Source of the DNA: an uncultured Mediterranea sp.
Lineage (GTDB): Bacteria > Bacteroidota > Bacteroidia > Bacteroidales > Bacteroidaceae
Assembly (NCBI GenBank): GCA_945831575.1
Contig: CAMACX010000011.1
Span: 1 to 64,000, forward strand
Reading direction: 5' to 3'
Length of the DNA: 64,000 nucleotides
Shown here: one piece after another, positions 48,119-62,474 of the stretch
Layout of the letters: each line of letters begins with the position of its first letter
Numbering within the stretch: position 1 is the stretch's first letter
Position numbers and translations under genes: made by a program
The notes under the pieces: model-generated
Database searches by the model: none
What the model was told of the DNA's origin: nothing
The model's input: only the letters and a program-made list of their open reading frames with translations

Positions 48119-48153
48119 CCACCGAAATCCAATGATTGCAATTCAAAGTAGAT

Positions 48154-48690
48154 ATGGGAACAGCTGACAATGACAACCGCACGATACTCGTGGTCGATGA
48201 CAACAAGGGCATCCTCACGGCCCTGAAGATTTGCCTCGATGGGGTATTCGACCGCATCTTGACGCTCTCCTCGCCTGAGGAGGTGCTCTCCACCCTGCAG
48301 CAGGAGACCATCGACGTGGTACTGCTCGACATGAACTTCTCCCTCGGGATGAACTCGGGACAGGAGGGGATGATGTGGCTGCAAGCTATCCACCGCCGCC
48401 ACCCTGACACGCCGATTGTGCTGATGACGGCCTACGCCGACGTGAAGCTGGCCGTGAATGGGCTGAAGGCGGGGGCGGCAGATTTCATCACCAAGCCGTG
48501 GGACAACGACGAACTGATACGCGTGCTGAGGGATGCTGTGGACTGCGGTAAGGAGGTCACCTCGCTGGAGAAGGTGGAAAATGACCATGTGCGCAAGGTG
48601 GTGGACCGCTGCCACGGCAACATCAGCCGGGCAGCTGAGCTGCTGGGTATCACCCGCCAGACGCTCTATGCTAAGATAAAGAAATTGTAA
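48154..48690 (+). CDS. Response regulator: receiver domain + Fis-type HTH (no AAA+ domain)
   Basis: TILVVDDNKG..VVLLDMNF..VLMTAYADVKLAVNGLKAGAADFITKPW; C-term NISRAAELLGITRQTLYAKIKKL. Confidence 0.9.
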   Translation: MGTADNDNRTILVVDDNKGILTALKICLDGVFDRILTLSSPEEVLSTLQQETIDVVLLDMNFSLGMNSGQEGMMWLQAIHRRHPDTPIVLMTAYADVKLAVNGLKAGAADFITKPWDNDELIRVLRDAVDCGKEVTSLEKVENDHVRKVVDRCHGNISRAAELLGITRQTLYAKIKKL

Positions 48691-48711
48691 ACCCGCCAAC
48701 ACACCGTAGCC

Positions 48712-49575
48712 ATGACCACCCTGCTCTCCCTGCTGACGCTCTTCTTGCTGGTGCTTGTCATCACCATCACCCTCCTCTTCTACCACCACCAGCAGCTGCT
48801 CAAGACACGGGCCCACCTGATGCGTGAGGCGATGCGCAACCGTGAGTTCACCTTCTCGCTGCCCACCTCGGGCCTGCTCCCCGGGGAGCGGGCCTTGCAA
48901 CAGGCTCTCAATGACCTGGGACAGGACATCAGCCGCCTGGTGGCACAAAATGAGGTGGAGTCGTGGCAGCGGCTCACGCGCGTGTTGACCCACGAGATCA
49001 TGAATGCCACCACCCCTATCCAGAGCATCAGCCAGGCCTACCTGCGCTCACCCAAGATTGTCGGCACTCCCTACGAGGAGGGCATCCGCGCCATCTACGA
49101 GACAAGCAGCGGACTGGCCCACTTCGTGGCAAGCTACCGCACACTGACGCAGCTGCAGGAGCCTGTCATCAACACGGTCTATCTGGCACAGGCCATAGAG
49201 AGGGTCAAGTCCCTCTACCCCACCCTGGAGTGGCGCATCACCATCCCCTCCTCAGTCACTCTTCAGGCCGATGAGACCCTCCTCCGCCAGGTATTTATCA
49301 ACCTGATGAAGAATGCCGTAGAGGCCGGAGCCACCGCTGTAGCCCTGACGTGGGACAAGGAGAAAGTGCTCTACGTGAGCAACAACGGCACTCCCATCCC
49401 CGCCGAGATGCGCCGCGAGATCTTCATCCCCTTCTTCACCACCAAGTCGAGCGGTTCGGGCATCGGACTCTCCCTCTCACGCCAGCTGTTGATGATGCAA
49501 GGCATCACCCTGACACTGGAGGACACCGCCCAAAGCAGCTACCACGTCACCTTCGCCCTGAGGCCCAACAGTTGA
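48712..49575 (+). CDS. Sensor histidine kinase (short; HisKA + HATPase)
   Basis: LTHEIMNATTPIQSIS H-box, LLRQVFINLMKNAVEAG N-box, SSGSGIGLSLSRQL G-box. Confidence 0.9.
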   Translation: MTTLLSLLTLFLLVLVITITLLFYHHQQLLKTRAHLMREAMRNREFTFSLPTSGLLPGERALQQALNDLGQDISRLVAQNEVESWQRLTRVLTHEIMNATTPIQSISQAYLRSPKIVGTPYEEGIRAIYETSSGLAHFVASYRTLTQLQEPVINTVYLAQAIERVKSLYPTLEWRITIPSSVTLQADETLLRQVFINLMKNAVEAGATAVALTWDKEKVLYVSNNGTPIPAEMRREIFIPFFTTKSSGSGIGLSLSRQLLMMQGITLTLEDTAQSSYHVTFALRPNS

Positions 49576-51242: not shown

Positions 51243-52208
51243 TCAATGATTCAGCGTGCCGGTATTGACCACGGGCTGTGCTGACTCATCGGCGCAGAGC
51301 ACCACGAGCAGGTTGCTCACCATGGCCGCCTTCTTCTCCTCATCAAGCTCCACAATCTGTTCTTCCGAGAGCTTGCAGAGCGCCATCTTGACCATCGACA
51401 CCGCTCCCTCCACAATCTTCTCGCGGGCAGTGATGATGGCCGAGGCCTGCTGACGGCGAAGCATCACGGCTGCAATCTCGGGAGCATAAGCCAGGTAGTT
51501 GATGCGCGCCTCGACCACCTCCATGCCAGCCATGGCCAAGCGTTCGTTGAGCTTCTGCTCCAGCTGTTCGTTGATTTCCTCGCCACCCGAGCGGAGGGTG
51601 AGTTCCTTCAGGTCAGCCTCATTGTCATCGTAGGCATACTGTCCGGCCACCTGACGGAGGGCCGCATCACTCTGTATCTTCACGAAGTTCTCGAAGGCGT
51701 TCATGCGGTTGGCTACGGCATTACCAATTGAGACCTGTGCATTCGAGCCATTTCCCACGCTCACAGGCTGAGCCGCCATGGTCTGTGCGTCAATCTCAAA
51801 CATCGCCTTGTAGGTGTCCTTCAACTTCCACACCAGCACGAGGCCGATCAGGATGGGGTTACCGATTTTGTCGTTCACCTTGATAGGCTCCACGTCGAGG
51901 TTACGCGCACGGAGCGACAGCTTCTTCTTGTCCATGAAGGGATTGAGCCAGAAGAATCCCGTGCGGCGGAAGGTACCCTTGTACTTGCCGAAGAAGACCA
52001 TGACCCGCGCTTCATTGGGCTCCAGCTGGATATAACCCGCCATCCAGATGAACCACAACACCGAGAGCAGCGCAGAAAGCACAATGCTCCACACCTCCAT
52101 CAGCCAAAATCCAAAAACAATCAGTGCCGTAAAAAGCACCAAGTGAATAAACAACATCGCAAAGCCATTCATCAAGAAGCCCGCATACTCTCTTTCTTTT
52201 GTCTCCAT
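51243..52208 (-). CDS. SPFH/Band 7 domain membrane protein
   Basis: QLEPNEARVMVFFGKYKGTFRRTGFFWLNPF; LAMAGMEVVEARINYLAYAPEIAAVMLRRQQASAIITAREKIVEGAV. Confidence 0.92.
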   Translation of the reverse strand: METKEREYAGFLMNGFAMLFIHLVLFTALIVFGFWLMEVWSIVLSALLSVLWFIWMAGYIQLEPNEARVMVFFGKYKGTFRRTGFFWLNPFMDKKKLSLRARNLDVEPIKVNDKIGNPILIGLVLVWKLKDTYKAMFEIDAQTMAAQPVSVGNGSNAQVSIGNAVANRMNAFENFVKIQSDAALRQVAGQYAYDDNEADLKELTLRSGGEEINEQLEQKLNERLAMAGMEVVEARINYLAYAPEIAAVMLRRQQASAIITAREKIVEGAVSMVKMALCKLSEEQIVELDEEKKAAMVSNLLVVLCADESAQPVVNTGTLNH

Positions 52209-52520
52209 TGTAATCTAGTGTTTAATGATTAGTGATTAACGTTTATAATAAGTTTATAGTAATATCATTTTAGTATCACAAAGATATAGAAAATAAGAAA
52301 TATATCGTTCTATATCGACTTGATATTTAACAACTATTATGAAACCTATTCTGTTGCTAACCCTGTAAAGGATGTTGCAAATTGTTGAACGGAGACATAC
52401 TTTGCAAACCTTATTTATCCCAAAAATGATAAAAAACAGCTATTTGTTTTGTGGTTCAACCTATTTCCACTATTTTCGCAGTCTGAAACAGGTTGATTGA
52501 TGCCTGTAGGGAAAAGAAGA

Positions 52521-53573
52521 ATGAAACAGTTACGCTATATGCTCTTGACGCTACTGCTGCTCCCCTTGTGCACTTCTTACGCCGAGGAGAGCCGCTCTGC
52601 CTGCGACCACTATCGCCGCGAGAACCTCGTGCGCGACTCCATCAGTGCGCAGAGCTACGTAGCACGGGTCAACCTGCAGCGGGCACGCTATCAGGTAAGC
52701 GAACTTACGCTCAAGACGCAGCAACAGCGGGCTGACCTCTTGCTCTACCTCTCCCTGGGCAGCCTCTTCACCTTGTTGCTCATTGCTGTAGGTTCCTACA
52801 ATCTGAGCCGTAAAAACCGCCACCTCAAAGTGGCCAAGGCAAAGCTGGAGCAGGCACAGAAGGAGGCCGAACGCTCCATCTTCACCAAGAACCTCTTCCT
52901 CTCTAACATGAGCCACGAGATACGCACCCCACTCAATGCACTCTCGGGCTTCTCCTCCATCCTGACGGACAGCAACATTGATGCCGAGACCCGACAGCAA
53001 TGCAACGATATCATCCAGCAGAACTCCGACCTGCTCGTCAAGCTAATAGACGACGTAGTAGATCTCTCCAACTTGGAGAAGGGCAACATGCAATTCCGTT
53101 TCGCCCTGCAGGAGGTGGTATCGCTCTGCCGCAAGGTGGTCGATACCGTGGAGCGCATCAAGCAGACCGCTGCCGAAGTACGCTTCGAGAGCTCGCTACA
53201 GAAGCTCAATCTCTACACCGACGAGGCTCGCTTGCAGCAACTGCTCATCAACCTGCTCATCAATGCCACCAAGTTCACTACCGAGGGCAGCATCACCCTC
53301 TCGCTGACCCTCGACGGGGAGATGGCCCTCTTCAGCGTGACCGACACAGGCTGCGGCATTGCCCCCGACCAGCGCGAGAAGGTATTCAACCGCTTCGAAA
53401 AGCTCAACGAGAACGCTCAAGGCACCGGCCTGGGCCTGAGCATCTGCCGACTCATCATCGAGCGCTTCGGCGGCAAGATATGGATTGACCCCACCTACAA
53501 CACGGGTACCCGCTTCTGCTTCACTCACCCACTGCCACAGGCAGCTGTCCACGGAAAGGAGGCTGCCCAATGA
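52521..53573 (+). CDS. Short membrane sensor histidine kinase A1 (catalytically intact, no TPR)
   Basis: FLSNMSHEIRTPLNALSGFSSIL; LLINLLINATKF; VTDTGCGIAPDQ; GTGLGLSICRLI. Confidence 0.92.
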   Translation: MKQLRYMLLTLLLLPLCTSYAEESRSACDHYRRENLVRDSISAQSYVARVNLQRARYQVSELTLKTQQQRADLLLYLSLGSLFTLLLIAVGSYNLSRKNRHLKVAKAKLEQAQKEAERSIFTKNLFLSNMSHEIRTPLNALSGFSSILTDSNIDAETRQQCNDIIQQNSDLLVKLIDDVVDLSNLEKGNMQFRFALQEVVSLCRKVVDTVERIKQTAAEVRFESSLQKLNLYTDEARLQQLLINLLINATKFTTEGSITLSLTLDGEMALFSVTDTGCGIAPDQREKVFNRFEKLNENAQGTGLGLSICRLIIERFGGKIWIDPTYNTGTRFCFTHPLPQAAVHGKEAAQ

Positions 53574-55606
53574 AGCACCTGCTCTGCACTCTTCTGGTGC
53601 TCATCGGTCTCTGCCCCCTCCACGCACTTCACGCCCAGGAGCAAAGCGAAGTGGATAGCCTCCACCGTATCGTGGAGTCCCTGCCACGGGGTACGGAAAG
53701 ACTCAATCAACTCGCCAGGCTGGTGCGTGTCACCCAGTTGACACCCGAAGGCATCAATTACGCGCGACAGCTCTATACGGAGGCGATGCAACAGCACAAC
53801 GATACCTTGGTCTGCACTGCCGCCGCCCACGCCATCGGCAACCACTACTCCTTCAGCGACAACGCCACAGGTCTGGACAGTATCCGCCACTGGGCCTCCA
53901 TCGGCATACCACTATCCAAGAAACTGGGTATCTGGAAGTTCTACTTCGAGATGAAGAAGGCGCTGACCTGTGCCTACATCTTCAACAGCCGCTTTGAGTT
54001 TGCCTTGGAGGAAGCCAAAAGTATGGCTGCAGAGGCGGAGGAAATCAGCAACTACGACGGACTGGCCAACGCCTACCTCTGCATGGGCATGGCCTATCAA
54101 GGCAGCAAGCGCTGGAAAGAGTGCTGGGAGATGCTCCAGAAGGCCCACGGCCTCTTCAGTAAAGACATCTACCCCACCCTGAAGTTCAACATCCTCTTCC
54201 AATGTATTGACTACCTCTACGTCAACAACCGCAGCAAGGATATACTGCCCTTCCTGGATGAAGGCCATGAGCTGATTGACCAATTCCTTCATGCCAACCC
54301 CTATCTGGAGTCAGCCCTCAGCGGTTCCTACTTCTTACTCACCACCTATGCCATCACCAGCTACTCCAAGCTGGGACAGACACAGCAAGCCAGCCAGTAT
54401 ATCCCTCAAGCCCAGAAATGGCGCAACATCATGAACTTGAAGACCTACGACAAGTTCTACTTTGAGGCGTTGTGCGACTACTACACGGCCCTGAAGCAAT
54501 TCGACAAGGCCGTAGCCTACGGTGACTCGGTACAGGCGGTCATCGTAAGCAATGGACTTCAGGCCGATGACCTCATATTCCATCTGGAGCGACAGGCCGA
54601 CCTCTACTATACGATGGGCGACTACGACCAGGCCCTCCCCCTCTACCAGCGCAGCAAGGCCCTGCGTGACTCCATCAACCGCGTCATAGCCGACCGCCAA
54701 ATGGATGAGATTAAGGAGATGTACGCCATGGACCACCTGGCACTTGAGGCGGCAAAGATGCGTCAACGGGTACAATGGGCCATCATAGGTAGTGTATTTC
54801 TCGTCATTGGAGTAATGATTTTCCTCTGGCGACGCAATTACCACTACAACAGGCAGCTCCAACTCTCCACACAGGCCACCAGCCAAGCAGCCAAGACCAC
54901 TCAGGAGGCCAACGAACAGAAACGCCGCTTCCTCTCTACGATGAGTCATGCCATCCGCGTACCGCTTCATAGCGTAGTGGGCTTCTCCCAATTGCTCTCC
55001 ACGGACTCCACCCTCACCGACGAAGAGCGCAACGAGTATGGCGAGATAGTACGCTATAACACCGAGCAACTGATGTTTCTCGTCAACAGCGTGCTCGACC
55101 TCTCGCGTCTGGAAGCCGGCATGACCAAGTGGCAGATGGCCGACTACGACCTCTTCCAGCTCATGAGCGATGCTACAGGAAGTGTCAGGATGAGCCAACC
55201 GCAGATCAAGGTTGACCTCCAGCTCAGTCAGGAACAATGGCCCATCCATACTGATACCGGACGAATGATGCAGGTCTTTGTCAGCATGCTAGCAGGTACC
55301 GTCACGACGCCACATCCGGTACCTGAGACGGTCATCGTGGAGATGCGCATTGCCGGGGAAGAGCTCGAACTCGTCGTCGAAGGAAGTCCGCTGGCCGACC
55401 GCAACCGGGAGAACCAGGAGAGCCTCCTCAGACACCAGATCAACCGCCTGACCCTGGAATACTTCGGCGGCAGTTACGCCACCGACTTTGAGCATCGCAT
55501 CATCTCCGTCATCTTCAGCAAGGTGCAACATCCCTCACAGGAAAAGGCCGCAGGCAATTACCCCCCCCCCAAGTCTCTGCAAGCGATGGAGCCTCTTCCC
55601 CTCTAG
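53570..55606 (+). CDS. TPR-containing degenerate histidine kinase B1 (pseudo-kinase)
   Basis: TPR-like N-terminal helices, TM, FLSTMSHAIRVPLHSVVGFSQLLS; no N/G1/G2 boxes in the remaining C-terminal region; ATGA overlap with A1. Confidence 0.88.
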   Translation: MKHLLCTLLVLIGLCPLHALHAQEQSEVDSLHRIVESLPRGTERLNQLARLVRVTQLTPEGINYARQLYTEAMQQHNDTLVCTAAAHAIGNHYSFSDNATGLDSIRHWASIGIPLSKKLGIWKFYFEMKKALTCAYIFNSRFEFALEEAKSMAAEAEEISNYDGLANAYLCMGMAYQGSKRWKECWEMLQKAHGLFSKDIYPTLKFNILFQCIDYLYVNNRSKDILPFLDEGHELIDQFLHANPYLESALSGSYFLLTTYAITSYSKLGQTQQASQYIPQAQKWRNIMNLKTYDKFYFEALCDYYTALKQFDKAVAYGDSVQAVIVSNGLQADDLIFHLERQADLYYTMGDYDQALPLYQRSKALRDSINRVIADRQMDEIKEMYAMDHLALEAAKMRQRVQWAIIGSVFLVIGVMIFLWRRNYHYNRQLQLSTQATSQAAKTTQEANEQKRRFLSTMSHAIRVPLHSVVGFSQLLSTDSTLTDEERNEYGEIVRYNTEQLMFLVNSVLDLSRLEAGMTKWQMADYDLFQLMSDATGSVRMSQPQIKVDLQLSQEQWPIHTDTGRMMQVFVSMLAGTVTTPHPVPETVIVEMRIAGEELELVVEGSPLADRNRENQESLLRHQINRLTLEYFGGSYATDFEHRIISVIFSKVQHPSQEKAAGNYPPPKSLQAMEPLPL

Positions 55607-55662
55607 AAGAGACAAGACATAATGACCATATTAGTAATACATAATAGTATATTAGAAAGAAA

Positions 55663-56937
55663 ATGAAAAAACTTAACCCCGAAACGCTCTGTGTACAAGC
55701 CGGATGGAGCCCCAAGAAGGGCGAACCGCGTGTACTTCCCATCTATCAAAGCACAACCTTCAAATACGAGACCAGCGAACAGATGGCCCGCCTCTTTGAT
55801 CTGGAGGATAACGGCTACTTCTATACCCGCCTGCAAAATCCCACCAACGATGCCGTGGCCGCCAAGATTGCCGCCCTCGAAGGGGGCGTTGGGGCCATGC
55901 TGACCAGTAGCGGGCAGGCAGCCAACTTCTATGCCGTATTCAACATCTGTCAAGCTGGCGACCACTTCGTCAGCTCCTCCTGCATCTACGGAGGTACCTA
56001 TAATCTCTTTGGCGTGACCATGAAGAAGCTGGGTATCGAGGTGACCTTCGTCAACCCCGATGCCTCGGAAGAGGAGATTATCGCCGCCTTCCGCCCCAAC
56101 ACCAAGTGCCTCTTCGGAGAGACAATCTCCAACCCTACACTGGAAGTTCTTGACATCGAGAAGTTTGCCCGCATTGCCCACAGCCAGGGCGTACCCCTGA
56201 TTGTAGATAACACCTTCCCTACTCCCATCAACTGCCGCCCCTTCGAGTGGGGTGCCGACATCGTGACCCACTCCACCACCAAGTATATGGATGGCCATGC
56301 CACCAGCGTGGGCGGTGCCGTGGTGGATAGTGGCAACTTCCCCTGGGAACAGTATGCCGACAAGTTCCCCGGTCTCTGCCAACCCGATGAGTCATACCAC
56401 GGACTGACCTACACACAAGCGTTTGGCAAGATGGCCTACATGACCAAGGCCACCGCCCAGCTGATGCGCGACTTGGGCAGCATCCAGAGCCCACAGAACG
56501 CCTTCCTCCTCAACCTCGGTCTGGAGACCCTCCACCTACGCATGCCCCAACATTGCAAGAATGCACAGGCCGTGGCCGAATACTTGTCAAGCAATGACAA
56601 AGTGGCCTGGGTGAATTACAGTGGACTCCCTGGTGACAAGTATCATGCACTGGCCGAAAAATACATGCCCAACGGCTCGTGTGGCGTAGTGACCTTCGGC
56701 CTGAAGGGCGGACGCGATGTGGCCATCAAGTTCATGGACTCGCTGAAGCTGGCTGCCATCGTGACCCACGTGGCTGATGCCCGCACCTGCGTACTCCATC
56801 CCGCCAGCCATACCCACCGCCAGCTTACCGATGAGCAGCTGATGGCCGCAGGTGTACGCCCCGACCTGATCCGCTTCTCCGTAGGTATTGAGAACGCTGC
56901 CGACATCATTGCCGACATCGAGCAGGCTCTGGGTTAA
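55663..56937 (+). CDS. metY: O-acetylhomoserine aminocarboxypropyltransferase / Cys-Met metabolism PLP enzyme
   Basis: TLCVQAGWSPKKGEPRVLPIYQSTTF, VDNTFPTPINCRPFEWGADIVTHSTTKYMDGHA (PLP Lys), LETLHLRM. Confidence 0.93.
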   Translation: MKKLNPETLCVQAGWSPKKGEPRVLPIYQSTTFKYETSEQMARLFDLEDNGYFYTRLQNPTNDAVAAKIAALEGGVGAMLTSSGQAANFYAVFNICQAGDHFVSSSCIYGGTYNLFGVTMKKLGIEVTFVNPDASEEEIIAAFRPNTKCLFGETISNPTLEVLDIEKFARIAHSQGVPLIVDNTFPTPINCRPFEWGADIVTHSTTKYMDGHATSVGGAVVDSGNFPWEQYADKFPGLCQPDESYHGLTYTQAFGKMAYMTKATAQLMRDLGSIQSPQNAFLLNLGLETLHLRMPQHCKNAQAVAEYLSSNDKVAWVNYSGLPGDKYHALAEKYMPNGSCGVVTFGLKGGRDVAIKFMDSLKLAAIVTHVADARTCVLHPASHTHRQLTDEQLMAAGVRPDLIRFSVGIENAADIIADIEQALG

Positions 56938-57003
56938 CGGCCCAATCCACACGACACAACAGCCAACCATCTAAGAGCATTATCATACAGAGACTGAAAC
57001 ACT

Positions 57004-58044
57004 ATGCGAAGGGTTCTCCTTTTCCTCCTTTTCCTGTGGCCAGCACTATTTCAATCGACCACACCTTTTGATAGCGATCGCGATGCATGCGACCGCTATC
57101 GGGAGGAGAAGGAACGTGCTGACGTCACCAGCCCACAGAGCTACATTGCCCAGATCAACCTGCAACGCACGCTCCACGAGGTCAACGAACTGAAGTTCCA
57201 CAACGAACGACAGCAGAACCGCCTGCTCTTCTACCAGATTCTCGGGTGGACACTCCTGCTCGCCTCTGTTGTGGTCAGCATCTATCACCTGCTCCGCACG
57301 AACCGCCACCTCAAGCAGTCGGAGAAGGAGCTGATGCAAGCATGCCAGGATGCCGAGCAGTCCATCCGCCGGAAGAACCTCTTCCTCTCCAACATGAGTC
57401 ACGAAATCCGTACCCCACTCAACGCCCTCTCCGGCTTCTCTTCCATCCTGACGGAGAGCAGTGTAGATGCCGAGATGCGCCAACAATGCAACGAGATTAT
57501 CCAACAGAACTCCGACTTGCTCATCAAGTTGATTGACGACGTGGTGGATCTCTCCAATCTGGAAAGGGGAAGCATGCACTTCACCTACGGCCCAGCCGAG
57601 GCCGTGACCCTCTGCCGCAAGGTCGTGGAGACCGTGGAGCGTATCAAGCAGACCTTGGCTCTGGTACAATTCAGCACGCCACTCACGGCCTTGGTGCTGA
57701 CTACCGATGCGGCCCGTCTGCAGCAGGTACTCATCAACCTGCTCATCAACGCCACCAAATTTACCTCCGAAGGTTCCATCACCCTCTCGCTGGAGCAGCA
57801 TGGTGAGGAGGCCCTCTTTGCCGTGACCGACACCGGCTGCGGCATCGCTGCCGACCAACACGACAAAGTGTTCAACCGCTTTGAGAAGCTCAACGAGCAA
57901 GCTCAAGGCACCGGACTTGGACTATCCATCTGCCAGCTCATCATCCAGGAGATGGGCGGTAAGATCTGGATTGACTCCTCCTACCACGATGGAGCCCGCT
58001 TCTGCTTCACCCACCCGCTACACAGAAAGGAGGTGACCGTATGA
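57004..58044 (+). CDS. Short membrane sensor histidine kinase A2 (paralog of A1)
   Basis: FLSNMSHEIRTPLNALSGFSSIL; VLINLLINATKF; VTDTGCGIAADQ; GTGLGLSICQLI. Confidence 0.92.
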   Translation: MRRVLLFLLFLWPALFQSTTPFDSDRDACDRYREEKERADVTSPQSYIAQINLQRTLHEVNELKFHNERQQNRLLFYQILGWTLLLASVVVSIYHLLRTNRHLKQSEKELMQACQDAEQSIRRKNLFLSNMSHEIRTPLNALSGFSSILTESSVDAEMRQQCNEIIQQNSDLLIKLIDDVVDLSNLERGSMHFTYGPAEAVTLCRKVVETVERIKQTLALVQFSTPLTALVLTTDAARLQQVLINLLINATKFTSEGSITLSLEQHGEEALFAVTDTGCGIAADQHDKVFNRFEKLNEQAQGTGLGLSICQLIIQEMGGKIWIDSSYHDGARFCFTHPLHRKEVTV

Positions 58045-60026
58045 GAAATCCTTTCAGAAGGAACCAACTGCTGACAACGCTGCTGTTTACCCTACTGCTG
58101 CTTCTCACCTCCTCCACAGCATGGAGTCTGCCAAGCCCATCCGTTGTGGAGAAGCTACGTTCCGAAGCCAACGCCCTGCCTCCAGGTAAGGAGCGGTTGG
58201 AATTGTTGCGCAAGGTGGTACGCTCCACACAGATGAGCAAAGAGGGCATCGACGATACCCGCCAGTTGCTCCACGAAGCACAGGAAGCTAACAACGACAG
58301 CTTGATCGCCTATAGTGTAGCCTTCCTCGTCAATCATCTCTTTGCCCAAAGCGAACGCGACATCGACAGCATACGTTACTGGACCTCGTACGCCCTGCCC
58401 ATAGCACACCGCTGCCAATACTGGGGCATGTACTTCCAGATGAAATACACCCTCATACAGACCTACATCTATGCACACTCCTACGAGTATGCCAAAGATG
58501 AAGCACGGCAGATGGTGTCTGAAGCCAAAGAGCAACAAGCCGTCACAGGACAACTTATCGCCTACAGTTGTCTAGCCATTGCTTACTACAGTACCCAGCA
58601 ATGGAAAGAGACGGAAGAGGCCTTGAAGAATGCCCACGACCTGTTCAGCCAGAATCCCCCCATGGCCAACAAGATTTCAGTGCTCAAGCTGACACTGACC
58701 TACCTGAATGCGGTCAACCGCTATGCCGACATGAAGCCCTACCTCACCGAACTCAGGCAAGAGCTCAATCAGATGGTGAGCCAGATACCCTCCATGGCCA
58801 AGGCGCTCAACGACTACTTCATGTTGCTGGAGTGCTACAGCATCAGCATGCACGTACACTGCAACGAGCTGGATCAAGCGGATGAACATATCTCCCAATT
58901 CCAGCTATACCAGAAGAAGGTAAACTATCAGCCCTACTACATCATCTACACGCAAGCGCTCACTTCCTACTACATGGCTCGCAAAGCGTATGATGAAGCC
59001 CTCGCCCTCAATGACAGTGCCCTCAAGCGCATCAAGGAGTTCCGTAACCGAGGCAAAGACTACATCTACTGCATGGAGCAGCGGGGCGACATCTACTACA
59101 ACCTGGGGAATTACAAGGAGGCACATCACCTCTATGAACAGGCTGAAGCCAAACGCGACTCGCTCACCAAAGTCATCACCGACATGCAGCTGGACGAATA
59201 CCGCAGCATGTATAAGATGGACCGCCTCAAGCTGGAGAAGGAGCGGCTGGGACAACGTGTGCTACGCATCATACTAGTCGCCGTACTGCTCATCGCAGCT
59301 GTAGCTGTACCCTCCGTCATCTACATCTACCACATCAAACGCCGGCTGCAGAAGAACCGTAAGAGAGCCCGGGAAGCCATGCTCCAAGCTAAACAGGCCA
59401 ACGATGCCAAACGCGACTTTCTGGGAGCCATGAGCCATGCCATCCGTGTGCCGCTCAACAGCGTGGTAGGCTTCTCGCAGATTATGTCAAGCGAGGAGGA
59501 GCTGAGCGAAGAGGAGCGCAAAGAGTATGCTGGCATCATCAAGCGCAATACCACGCTGCTCATGTATCAGGTAAACAGTGTACTCGACCTGTCGCGACTG
59601 GAAGCCGGAATGACCAAGTGGCAGATGGCTGACTGCGACCTGATAGAGCTGTTACAGCAAAGTGTATGCAAGGTATCTTACCTCCATCCGGCCCTCACAT
59701 TGCACCACTCCCTGCCACCCGTCACCTGCCCTGTCCATACAGACCCCATGCGCATGCAGCAACTCTTTGAGAGCACCCTCTGCGGTGTGGAGGTAGGCAT
59801 ACTGGCCACAGGTGAGGTGACACTGACTGTCTATGTAGAGGGCAACACACTGCATGCCACCGTCAAAGGCTCCCCCCTGGCCCGTGCCGAAGAACAGAAC
59901 CAACGCCGCAACCTGCGCCACAAGATCAATCAGCTCACACTGGCCTACTTTGGCGGCAGCTATGAGGTCGATTTGAAGACCCAGACAGTCAAGTTCAGCT
60001 ACCCCTTGAACCAGGACAAAGGATAA
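58041..60026 (+). CDS. TPR-containing degenerate histidine kinase B2 (paralog of B1)
   Basis: TPR-like helices, TM, FLGAMSHAIRVPLNSVVGFSQIMS; degenerate ATPase region; ATGA overlap with A2. Confidence 0.88.
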   Translation: MRNPFRRNQLLTTLLFTLLLLLTSSTAWSLPSPSVVEKLRSEANALPPGKERLELLRKVVRSTQMSKEGIDDTRQLLHEAQEANNDSLIAYSVAFLVNHLFAQSERDIDSIRYWTSYALPIAHRCQYWGMYFQMKYTLIQTYIYAHSYEYAKDEARQMVSEAKEQQAVTGQLIAYSCLAIAYYSTQQWKETEEALKNAHDLFSQNPPMANKISVLKLTLTYLNAVNRYADMKPYLTELRQELNQMVSQIPSMAKALNDYFMLLECYSISMHVHCNELDQADEHISQFQLYQKKVNYQPYYIIYTQALTSYYMARKAYDEALALNDSALKRIKEFRNRGKDYIYCMEQRGDIYYNLGNYKEAHHLYEQAEAKRDSLTKVITDMQLDEYRSMYKMDRLKLEKERLGQRVLRIILVAVLLIAAVAVPSVIYIYHIKRRLQKNRKRAREAMLQAKQANDAKRDFLGAMSHAIRVPLNSVVGFSQIMSSEEELSEEERKEYAGIIKRNTTLLMYQVNSVLDLSRLEAGMTKWQMADCDLIELLQQSVCKVSYLHPALTLHHSLPPVTCPVHTDPMRMQQLFESTLCGVEVGILATGEVTLTVYVEGNTLHATVKGSPLARAEEQNQRRNLRHKINQLTLAYFGGSYEVDLKTQTVKFSYPLNQDKG

Positions 60027-60139
60027 CTTAGACCTTGACCTGAGATAAATAACGTAGAATAATTGACTTAAGAAGGGGCAAAATTGCTAATTGTGCAACA
60101 AAAGGATGAATTTTTCCACTCTATTCGCACTTTTTTCTC

Positions 60140-60147
60140 TAATTTTG
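60140..60147 (+). promoter_or_regulatory. Putative -7 box TAATTTTG for maeB
   Basis: Matches TAnnTTTG, 36 nt upstream of ATG. Confidence 0.45.
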
Positions 60148-60182
60148 CGGCGATTTAACGTACAAACTTAAAATCGAAGCAT

Positions 60183-62474
60183 ATGGTAAAGATTACAAAA
60201 GAAGCCGCTTTGCTCTATCACGCACAGGGCAAACCCGGTAAGATTGAAGTAGTGCCCACCAAGCCCTACAGTACGCAGACCGACCTCTCGCTAGCCTACT
60301 CGCCCGGCGTGGCCGAGCCCTGTCTGGAGATAGAGAAGAACCCGCAGGATGCATACAAATACACGGCAAAGGGTAATCTGGTGGCCGTCATCTCGAATGG
60401 AACCGCTGTACTGGGACTGGGTGACATCGGTGCTATGGCCGGCAAACCGGTGATGGAAGGCAAGGGCCTGCTGTTTAAGATTTACGGCGGCATCGACGTG
60501 TTTGACATTGAAGTGAACGAGAAAGATCCCGATAAATTCATTGAGGCCGTGAAGGCCATCGCCCCTACCTTTGGCGGCATCAACCTGGAAGATATTAAGG
60601 CTCCTGAATGTTTTGAGATTGAGCGCAGGCTGAAGGCCGAACTCGATATCCCCGTGATGCACGACGACCAGCACGGCACAGCCATCATCTCCAGCGCCGG
60701 ACTGCTCAATGCACTACAGGTGGCCGGCAAGAAGATTGAAGAGGTTAAGATTGTGGTCAATGGTGCCGGTGCAGCGGCCATCTCATGTACGAAGCTCTAC
60801 GAAGCCCTGGGTGCTACCCATGAGAATATCCTGATGCTCGACTCGAAGGGCGTCATCACCAGCGACCGCGAAGGGCTCAACGAGATGAAGCGCTACTTTG
60901 CCACCGAGCGCCGTAATGTCTACACACTGGAAGAGGCCGTCAAGGGAGCTGATGTCTTCCTCGGTCTCTCGAAAGGCAACGTGCTGACACAGGATATGAT
61001 CCGCAGCATGGCCGACCATCCCATCGTCTTTGCCCTGGCCAATCCTGTACCCGAAATCTCGTACGAAGATGCCATGGCTGCACGCCCCGATGTATTGATG
61101 TCAACGGGCCGGAGTGACTATCCCAATCAGATCAACAACGTCATCGGCTTCCCCTACATCTTCCGCGGTGCCCTCGACGTAGCAGCTACCGCTATCAACG
61201 AAGAGATGAAGCTGGCTGCCGTACAGGCCATCGCCGACTTGGCCAAGCAACCCGTACCCGACATCGTCAACGAGGTCTATCACGTCAACAACTTCACCTT
61301 CGGTCCTGACTATTTCATTCCCAAGCCGGTAGATCCACGCCTCATCACCGAGGTGTCGATGGCCGTGGCCCGTGCTGCCATGGAGAGTGGTGTGGCCCGC
61401 AAGCCTATCACCGACTGGGAGGCTTACCGCCAGCACCTCAAGGAGTTGATGGGCCAGGAGAGCAAGCTGACACGCCAGCTGCGCGATACAGCCCGGCGCA
61501 ATCCGCAACGTGTGGTCTTTGCTGAGGGCATTCACCCCAACATGCTGAAGGCTGCTGTTGAAGCCCGCGCTGAAGGCATCTGTTACCCCATCCTCCTGGG
61601 CAATGATGAAGCCATCACCAAGCTGGCCGCCGAACTGGAACTGAGCCTGGAAGGCATCGAGATTGTCAACCTGCGCCACCCCAACGAGGCTCCCCGCCGC
61701 GAGCGCTACGCCCGTATCATGGCTGAGAAGCGTGCCCGCGAAGGGGTGACCTATGAAGAGGCCAATGACAAGATGTTTGAGCGCAACTACTTCGGCATGA
61801 TGATGGTAGAGACAGGCGAAGCAGATGCCTTCATCACCGGCCTTTACACCAAGTACAGCAACACCATCAAGGTAGCCAAAGAGGTTATCGGCATCCGTCC
61901 CTGCTACCAGCACTTCGGCACCATGCACATCCTCAACTCCAAGAAGGGCACCTTCTTTCTGGCTGATACGCTCATCAACCGCCATCCGGACACAGAGACG
62001 CTGATTGACGTAGCCCGCCTTACCGAAGAGACTGTGCGCTTCTTCAACCACACCCCTGTGATGGCCATGCTGAGCTACAGCAACTTCGGCGCAGACCCAG
62101 AGGGTAGCCCACAGAAGGTACATGAAGCAGTGGATTACATGCAGAGCCACTACCCCGAACTGGCCATTGACGGCGAGATGCAGGTCAACTTTGCCATGAA
62201 TCGCGAGTTGCGAGACAAGAAGTACCCCTTCACCCGCCTGAAAGGTAAGGATGTCAACACCCTGATTTTCCCCAACCTGAGCTCAGCCAATGCCGCCTAT
62301 CAGCTGCTGCAGACCATGAACACGGACGCTGAGATTATCGGTCCTATCCAGATGGGTCTGAACAAGCCAATTCACTTCACCGACTTTGAGAGTTCGGTTC
62401 GCGACATCGTCAACCTCACCGCCGTGGCGGTCATTGATGCGGTGGTAGCCAAGAAGAAGAGCTGCCAAGGGTAA
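60183..62474 (+). CDS. maeB: NADP-dependent malic enzyme with C-terminal phosphotransacetylase-like domain
   Basis: [40 protein letters not shown]-like C-terminus [15 protein letters not shown]. Confidence 0.95.

Follow-up and report, generated by a model that had tools for sequence, protein, structure and literature searches.

A TPR-bearing pseudo-histidine kinase encoded beside an active kinase in Mediterranea and its relatives: a probable two-subunit receptor kinase

We find that two genes for pseudo-histidine kinases (B1 and B2), within a 64,000-nucleotide stretch of DNA from an uncultured Mediterranea sp. (hereafter the window), each overlap the end of a gene for an active histidine kinase (A1 and A2), and that such pairs recur among relatives, which are Bacteroides-type gut bacteria. 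Most accounts treat histidine kinases as homodimers. Here, A and B together probably form one two-subunit receptor kinase, in which the dead, TPR-bearing B most probably regulates A via a DHp heterodimer. We read the altered H-box of B1 and B2 as one sign, among others, that the partner subunit is inactive, and not as a phosphate site that has been preserved.

Results

Two kinase pairs lie on the + strand of the window. A1 (52497..53573, +) is a short form of active histidine kinase, consisting of a signal or short periplasmic stub, a TM segment, HisKA and HATPase_c, without TPR; its Pfam matches score 61.9 bits (HisKA) and 96.2 bits (HATPase_c), and it carries MSHEIRTPL at 52908-52934 (+). 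B1 (53570..55606, +), whose start has 4 nt (ATGA) in common with the A1 stop, encodes a pseudo-histidine kinase with a TPR sensor, in which Pfam detects TPR_12 and HisKA (PF00512, 58-61.5 bits; HisKA/DHp domain 54917..55120, +) and no HATPase_c. Its MSHAIRVPL (54941-54967, +; H-box SHAIRVPL 54944-54967) keeps the His, with Ala at His+1 and Val at His+4, and downstream lies a pseudo-CA domain (55136..55519, +), a predicted CA-like fold in which alignment columns, predicted secondary structure and Foldseek indicate that the ATP lid is absent and the N, G1 and G2 boxes are lost. The second pair has the same plan: A2 (57004..58044, +) is again a short active kinase with Pfam HisKA and HATPase_c and with MSHEIRTPL at 57394-57420 (+), and B2 (58041..60026, +), joined to A2 by an ATGA overlap, is a pseudo-histidine kinase with TPR sensor, Pfam TPR and HisKA (PF00512, 54-55.1 bits; HisKA/DHp domain 59406..59609, +) and no HATPase_c, carrying MSHAIRVPL at 59430-59456 (+; H-box SHAIRVPL 59433-59456).

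A1 and A2 thus possess HisKA, H-E-x-x-T and a HATPase_c domain with all its boxes, whereas B1 and B2 possess HisKA but neither H-E/D-x-x-T/N nor a HATPase_c domain with N, G1, F and G2 boxes. The first-pass annotation of this DNA had reported Glu-to-Ala at His+1 and Thr-to-Val at His+4 in both B genes, and had called both products pseudokinases; the replacements are real, both catalytic DHp residues being gone (H-A-I-R-V in each), and the absence of HATPase_c, the lost boxes and the missing lid bear out the pseudokinase assignment. Its start for the B2 motif (59430) is exact, whereas that for B1 (54948) is 4 nt late, since SHAIRVPL starts at 54944.

The gene between the pairs (55663..56937, +) resembles an O-acetylhomoserine (thiol)-lyase type PLP enzyme, a name taken from sequence alone; at 88-98% identity in syntenic relatives, it is a part of the shared synteny that lies outside the A-B module. 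Upstream of A1, the window also holds a separate pair of a response regulator and a small kinase (48136-49575), and we saw no evidence here tying it to the A-B modules. Elsewhere in the same genome a third A-B pair (L188, G000:C21:26954-40613) sits between rho-like and ffh-like genes; its A has TPR, and its B (B3) has RQHISKPI where the H-box would be. Pfam HisKA matches in this genome number 23, comprising the three A-B pairs and 17 other kinases, and in all 17 of the latter the H-box, read from the fetched genome regions, is H-[ED]-x-x-[TS].

The family was collected by searching B1 in relatives first, and then by running a profile, made from 18 aligned rows that span the DHp and C-terminal domain of B, against named genome contigs, 392 genomes of the order, 160 of the genus and 296 of the class. 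Across the order, genus and class samples, full-length matches are almost confined to the genus, with a few outside it (G059, G110, G273), and the 296 class genomes gave no B-type match other than the window's own; named B-type matches come from Bacteroides, Mediterranea, Phocaeicola and a few Bacteroidales MAGs. From 113 fetched regions, belonging to draft genomes of mixed quality, we aligned 114 B frames and recovered the frames of 106 A partners, the two classes being set by profile scores that may miss odd members. Residue counts refer to these 114 B, which include the three non-genus B and exclude two fused B; the list used to count pairs is genus-only, includes the two fusions, and comes to 114 by coincidence.

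Catalytic residues separate the two classes sharply. His, Glu, Thr and the N-box Asn are present in 106/106 A, the G1 Asp in 105 and the G2 glycines in 103-105. In B, the phosphoacceptor position is occupied by Tyr (52), His (39), Asn (7), Phe (4), Asp (4), Gln (3), Lys (3) or Thr (2), so that the Tyr known from DivL is common in the family but not present in B1 or B2; His+1 is Asn in 33, Ala in 26, Glu in 23 and Asp in 19, with others, and His+4 is Ile in 37, Val in 32, Thr in 28 and Glu in 7, again with others. The F-box/ATP lid column is a gap in 114/114 B, and the N box, G1 and G2 are replaced; even the 14 B that retain a full H-D-x-x-T set (SHDIRTPL 10, SHDVRTPL 4) lack the lid. What is conserved includes the His+5 Pro (110 of 114) and the motifs LDLSRLE and NSPLA...FGGxY. 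Which members of the triad have gone differs by clade, while every B has lost its CA domain, as would be expected had the CA domain gone first and the H-box drifted later. Counting the SHA-x-x-V variants, as the first-pass annotation had proposed, gives SHAIRVPL in 23/114 and SHAVRVPL in 1/114 B genes as against 0/106 A partners, which, together with the uniform boxes of the 17 other kinases, indicates that SHAIRVPL is not due to chance.

A FastTree tree of A and B, built with the three H-box columns left out, separates the two classes fully (220/220). All SHAIRVPL members fall in one clade, B1 and B2 among them, and their identical boxes therefore reflect common descent; convergent loss is ruled out, and what had been taken as repeated evidence from two diverged paralogues is a single inherited state. 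The 24 SHA-I/V-RVPL members, chosen by this very box, share a mean identity of 48 percent, and the remainder of the box is nearly invariant. His is kept in 24/26 members of the clade; the two others, nested within it, carry RQHISKPI or RQKISKPI, and one of them is B3 (contig C21). Parsimony places three His/not-His changes on the tree. The phosphoacceptor position is a nearly invariant Tyr in another B clade and free in a third, and in one B clade the H-box as a whole is highly variable. To judge from these sequences, a structural role would account for the pattern at this position better than phosphorylation, while retention in the SHAIRVPL clade leaves some role for the His there. The proposal that the His had been selectively kept as a phosphoacceptor is not supported by these counts (just 39/114 B genes have it, and B3 of the same genome does not), and loss of the His in orthologues, named beforehand as evidence against that proposal, is what we find, B3 included.

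The genes of B are maintained by selection, and they are maintained beside A. Over 62 close pairs whose dS was usable, NG86 dN/dS has a median of 0.10 in B and 0.066 in A, which indicates purifying selection on the genes. The DHp scaffold of B is also retained, as had been suggested. An A profile search gave 109 strong A places to set against 114 B places, and with a neighbour limit of 3.5 kb a B lies near 107/109 A, whereas none of the 20 next-best kinases (0/20) has a B nearby. Conversely, the neighbours of B, whose inspection had also been proposed, include an adjoining A in 106/114 cases; of the eight B with no listed A, four stand beside a frameshifted or truncated A (L143, L166, L180, L206) and the rest near contig ends. 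At L143, L180 and L206 frameshifts split the A frame and B is intact, reflecting either sequencing error or real decay; at L166 (genome G440) an apparent deletion leaves A's TPR half joined to B's DHp half, and the pair without an active kinase. The nearest in-frame ATG of B falls within an ATGA overlap of the A stop in 78/106 pairs, and a 1-nt overlap is found in 12/106; one locus (L242:4735-7788) has B preceding A, opposite to the usual order. An active and a dead histidine kinase are thus encoded together and co-conserved, as is expected of systems of the RetS-GacS or FasBC type.

We detected no conserved response regulator neighbour, receiver matches lying near only 5 loci when a single receiver protein, which could miss distant receivers, was used as probe; the regulator gene that FasBC has in the same operon is accordingly not a feature of these pairs. 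The receiver genes beside L247 and L248 were considered as cognate regulators and rejected, as another kinase comes next and they look like a separate two-component pair.

With a cut-off of 500 residues for TPR length, both partners reach it in 61 of the 106 pairs, B only in 38, A only in 6 and neither in 1, so that at least one TPR-length partner is present in 105/106, the exception being L153 (L153:5980-7825). Opposite TPR losses occur in sister lineages (L172 versus L151, L160, L171, L181 and L184). Tested against independent loss, however, the pattern is not significant (Fisher p = 0.26); it is consistent with, and at most supports, the idea that a single sensor per pair suffices, and we do not take complementary loss as proof of a shared sensor. 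When window positions 51243-62474 are compared with L202, L198, L199, L152, L178 and L219, the flanking proteins are 87-98 percent identical, as against 46-77 percent for B and about 67-77 percent for A, so that the sensor pairs change far more rapidly than the proteins encoded around them.

In one draft genome (G525, contig C30), both pairs occur as single frames (L202:1031-4342 and L202:5803-9279), with synteny as in the window and flanking proteins 88-96 percent identical to the window's. The A2-B2 fusion has 1104 codons and a linker of 69 residues, the A1-B1 fusion 1159 codons and a linker of 110 residues; the linkers are charged, stop-free and unlike each other. Each fusion contains two HisKA stretches and one HATPase_c, and both B halves have SHAIRVPL. 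The presumed order, with kinase A inside, the signal segment of B crossing the membrane, TPR outside and the second DHp inside, would be topologically possible, and fusions of this kind are suggestive, at the level of sequence, of a DHp-DHp heterodimer.

An AlphaFold2 model of B1, based on 71 B sequences, has a mean pLDDT of 90 and a pTM of 0.65, and its last domain is predicted to have strands and helices in the order of a CA domain, but no lid segment. Foldseek comparison of B1 with the PDB returns chains of HK853, DivL (4q20, a top match), YycG and RetS (6dk7, 7n0e), with TM-scores of about 0.5-0.7 according to target length, and the sequence profile of B likewise retrieves RetS and DivL. 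Mean-field DCA between A and B reached an effective depth of 79, at which even the top intra-protein pairs were unlike helix contacts.

Discussion

Pairing, overlapping frames, selection and fusion together point to B as a dead subunit of A, and we regard the reading of A and B as one receptor kinase as the probable one. A would supply all of the phospho-chemistry, through His-Glu-x-x-Thr and an intact CA domain, while B would be a paralogue without catalytic activity, in which the DHp helices are retained and the periplasmic TPR sensor serves as a putative signal input. B would regulate A rather than the reverse, and DHp heterodimerisation would be the likeliest route, as the analogies of RetS-GacS (PMC12189002) and FasBC (PMC12675982) suggest. 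The Glu-to-Ala and Thr-to-Val replacements may then be understood as the state, particular to one clade, of a DHp from which phosphotransfer has been lost. Signalling by A-B heterodimers would have as a corollary that A phosphorylates its own His in cis in every case where B lacks one. Points against this account are the L153 pair, in which neither partner has TPR, those genomes with a broken A beside an intact B, possibly through sequencing error, the retention of His in most of the SHAIRVPL clade, and the origin of both fusions in a single draft genome. Overall, the first-pass interpretation is partly supported: where it had offered a retained phosphoacceptor or dimerisation surface, dimerisation fits best, given nearly one-to-one pairing and the fusions in one genome, and the phosphoacceptor does not.

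Several alternative explanations may be considered. The CA domain of A could phosphorylate the His of B in trans, B then passing the phosphate on, for which there is a precedent in the proposal that FasB acts on His246 of FasC (PMC12675982), and to which the retention of His in most of the SHAIRVPL clade and of H, D and T in the SHD[IV]RTPL group would be congenial. However, the 75/114 B without His, B3 among them, rule this out as a rule of the family, and an Ala in place of the His+1 acid abolished autophosphorylation in the four HisKA kinases CrdS, HK853, HK4262 and HK1190 (PMC3510030), such that we consider a phosphoacceptor role improbable. For B1 and B2, which have no ATP site of their own and no His+1 acid, autophosphorylation is not to be expected; phosphorylation by A is possible but unlikely, and their His is most likely not phosphorylated. 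Nor would B make a convincing phosphatase partner: a division of kinase and phosphatase labour between subunits is conceivable, although nothing here shows that split, and Thr or Asn at His+4, required for phosphatase activity (PMC3510030), is replaced by Val in B1 and B2, with Thr in only 28/114 B, which makes this reading very unlikely.

B might instead be a lone homodimer that binds a response regulator, its pairing with A reflecting shared regulation only, much as the dead histidine kinase core of DivL, with Tyr for His, binds DivK~P (PMC4211667); the same Tyr is found in 52/114 B. Yet near one-to-one pairing, overlapping frames and the A-B fusions all point to A as the partner, and a response regulator is not a conserved neighbour, and we view a lone homodimer as unlikely, if worth keeping in mind. 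Simple decay of a functionless duplicate might be suspected from the loss of every ATP-binding motif and the very variable H-box of one clade, but selection and pairing rule it out as a general account: dN/dS is about 0.10, frames are long and intact in most of the 114 loci, LDLSRLE and NSPLA...FGGxY are conserved, and we give this explanation almost no credence.

DivL of Caulobacter is, to our knowledge, not paired with a kinase encoded next to it. DivL resembles B in having a histidine kinase fold without kinase activity and a Tyr for the His, the commonest residue there in B, but it retains weak ATP binding and binds a response regulator (PMC4211667), and the SHAIRVPL members, unlike DivL, keep the His. 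RetS-GacS of Pseudomonas aeruginosa is similar in that an active kinase is controlled by a kinase-like protein that forms a heterodimer with it (PMC12189002), and comparisons of B by structure and by sequence both recover RetS structures, with the RetS-GacS DHp co-complex 7n0e among them; B differs in adjoining its partner gene, nearly one to one and in an operon whose frames overlap, in its TPR sensor, and in lacking the ATP lid throughout. FasBC of group A Streptococcus comprises two kinase-like proteins that are encoded side by side and form a heterodimer, one of them being a proposed pseudokinase (PMC12675982), an arrangement that the putative A-B heterodimer would parallel; the pseudokinase FasC, however, is proposed to bear the phosphorylated His, which most B lack, and its operon includes the regulator gene fasA, whereas A-B pairs have no conserved regulator neighbour. 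Finally, a ChrS pseudokinase variant of Corynebacterium glutamicum, dead in its CA domain, alters signalling via a paralogous histidine kinase, and its His is dispensable; in contrast to B, it is a laboratory-evolved frameshift and not a conserved gene family, and its truncated form gave no heterodimer signal in two-hybrid assays (PMC9491836).

Conclusions

We know of few well-studied kinase/pseudokinase partners. Papers on such pairs in Bacteroides were not found in the open-licence literature, and a description elsewhere is possible. Whether the pairs constitute a family, found throughout the genus, of receptor kinases with two obligate subunits, where catalysis would be left to A, B would serve as TPR sensor subunit, fused versions exist, and A-B heterodimers would stand in place of homodimers, seems to us an evenly balanced proposition. 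The persistence of a His in a degenerate DHp should not, by itself, be read as evidence of phosphorylation. About a hundred natural A-B pairs, together with two that are fused, offer a comparative system for asking how a live kinase is controlled by a dead partner subunit.
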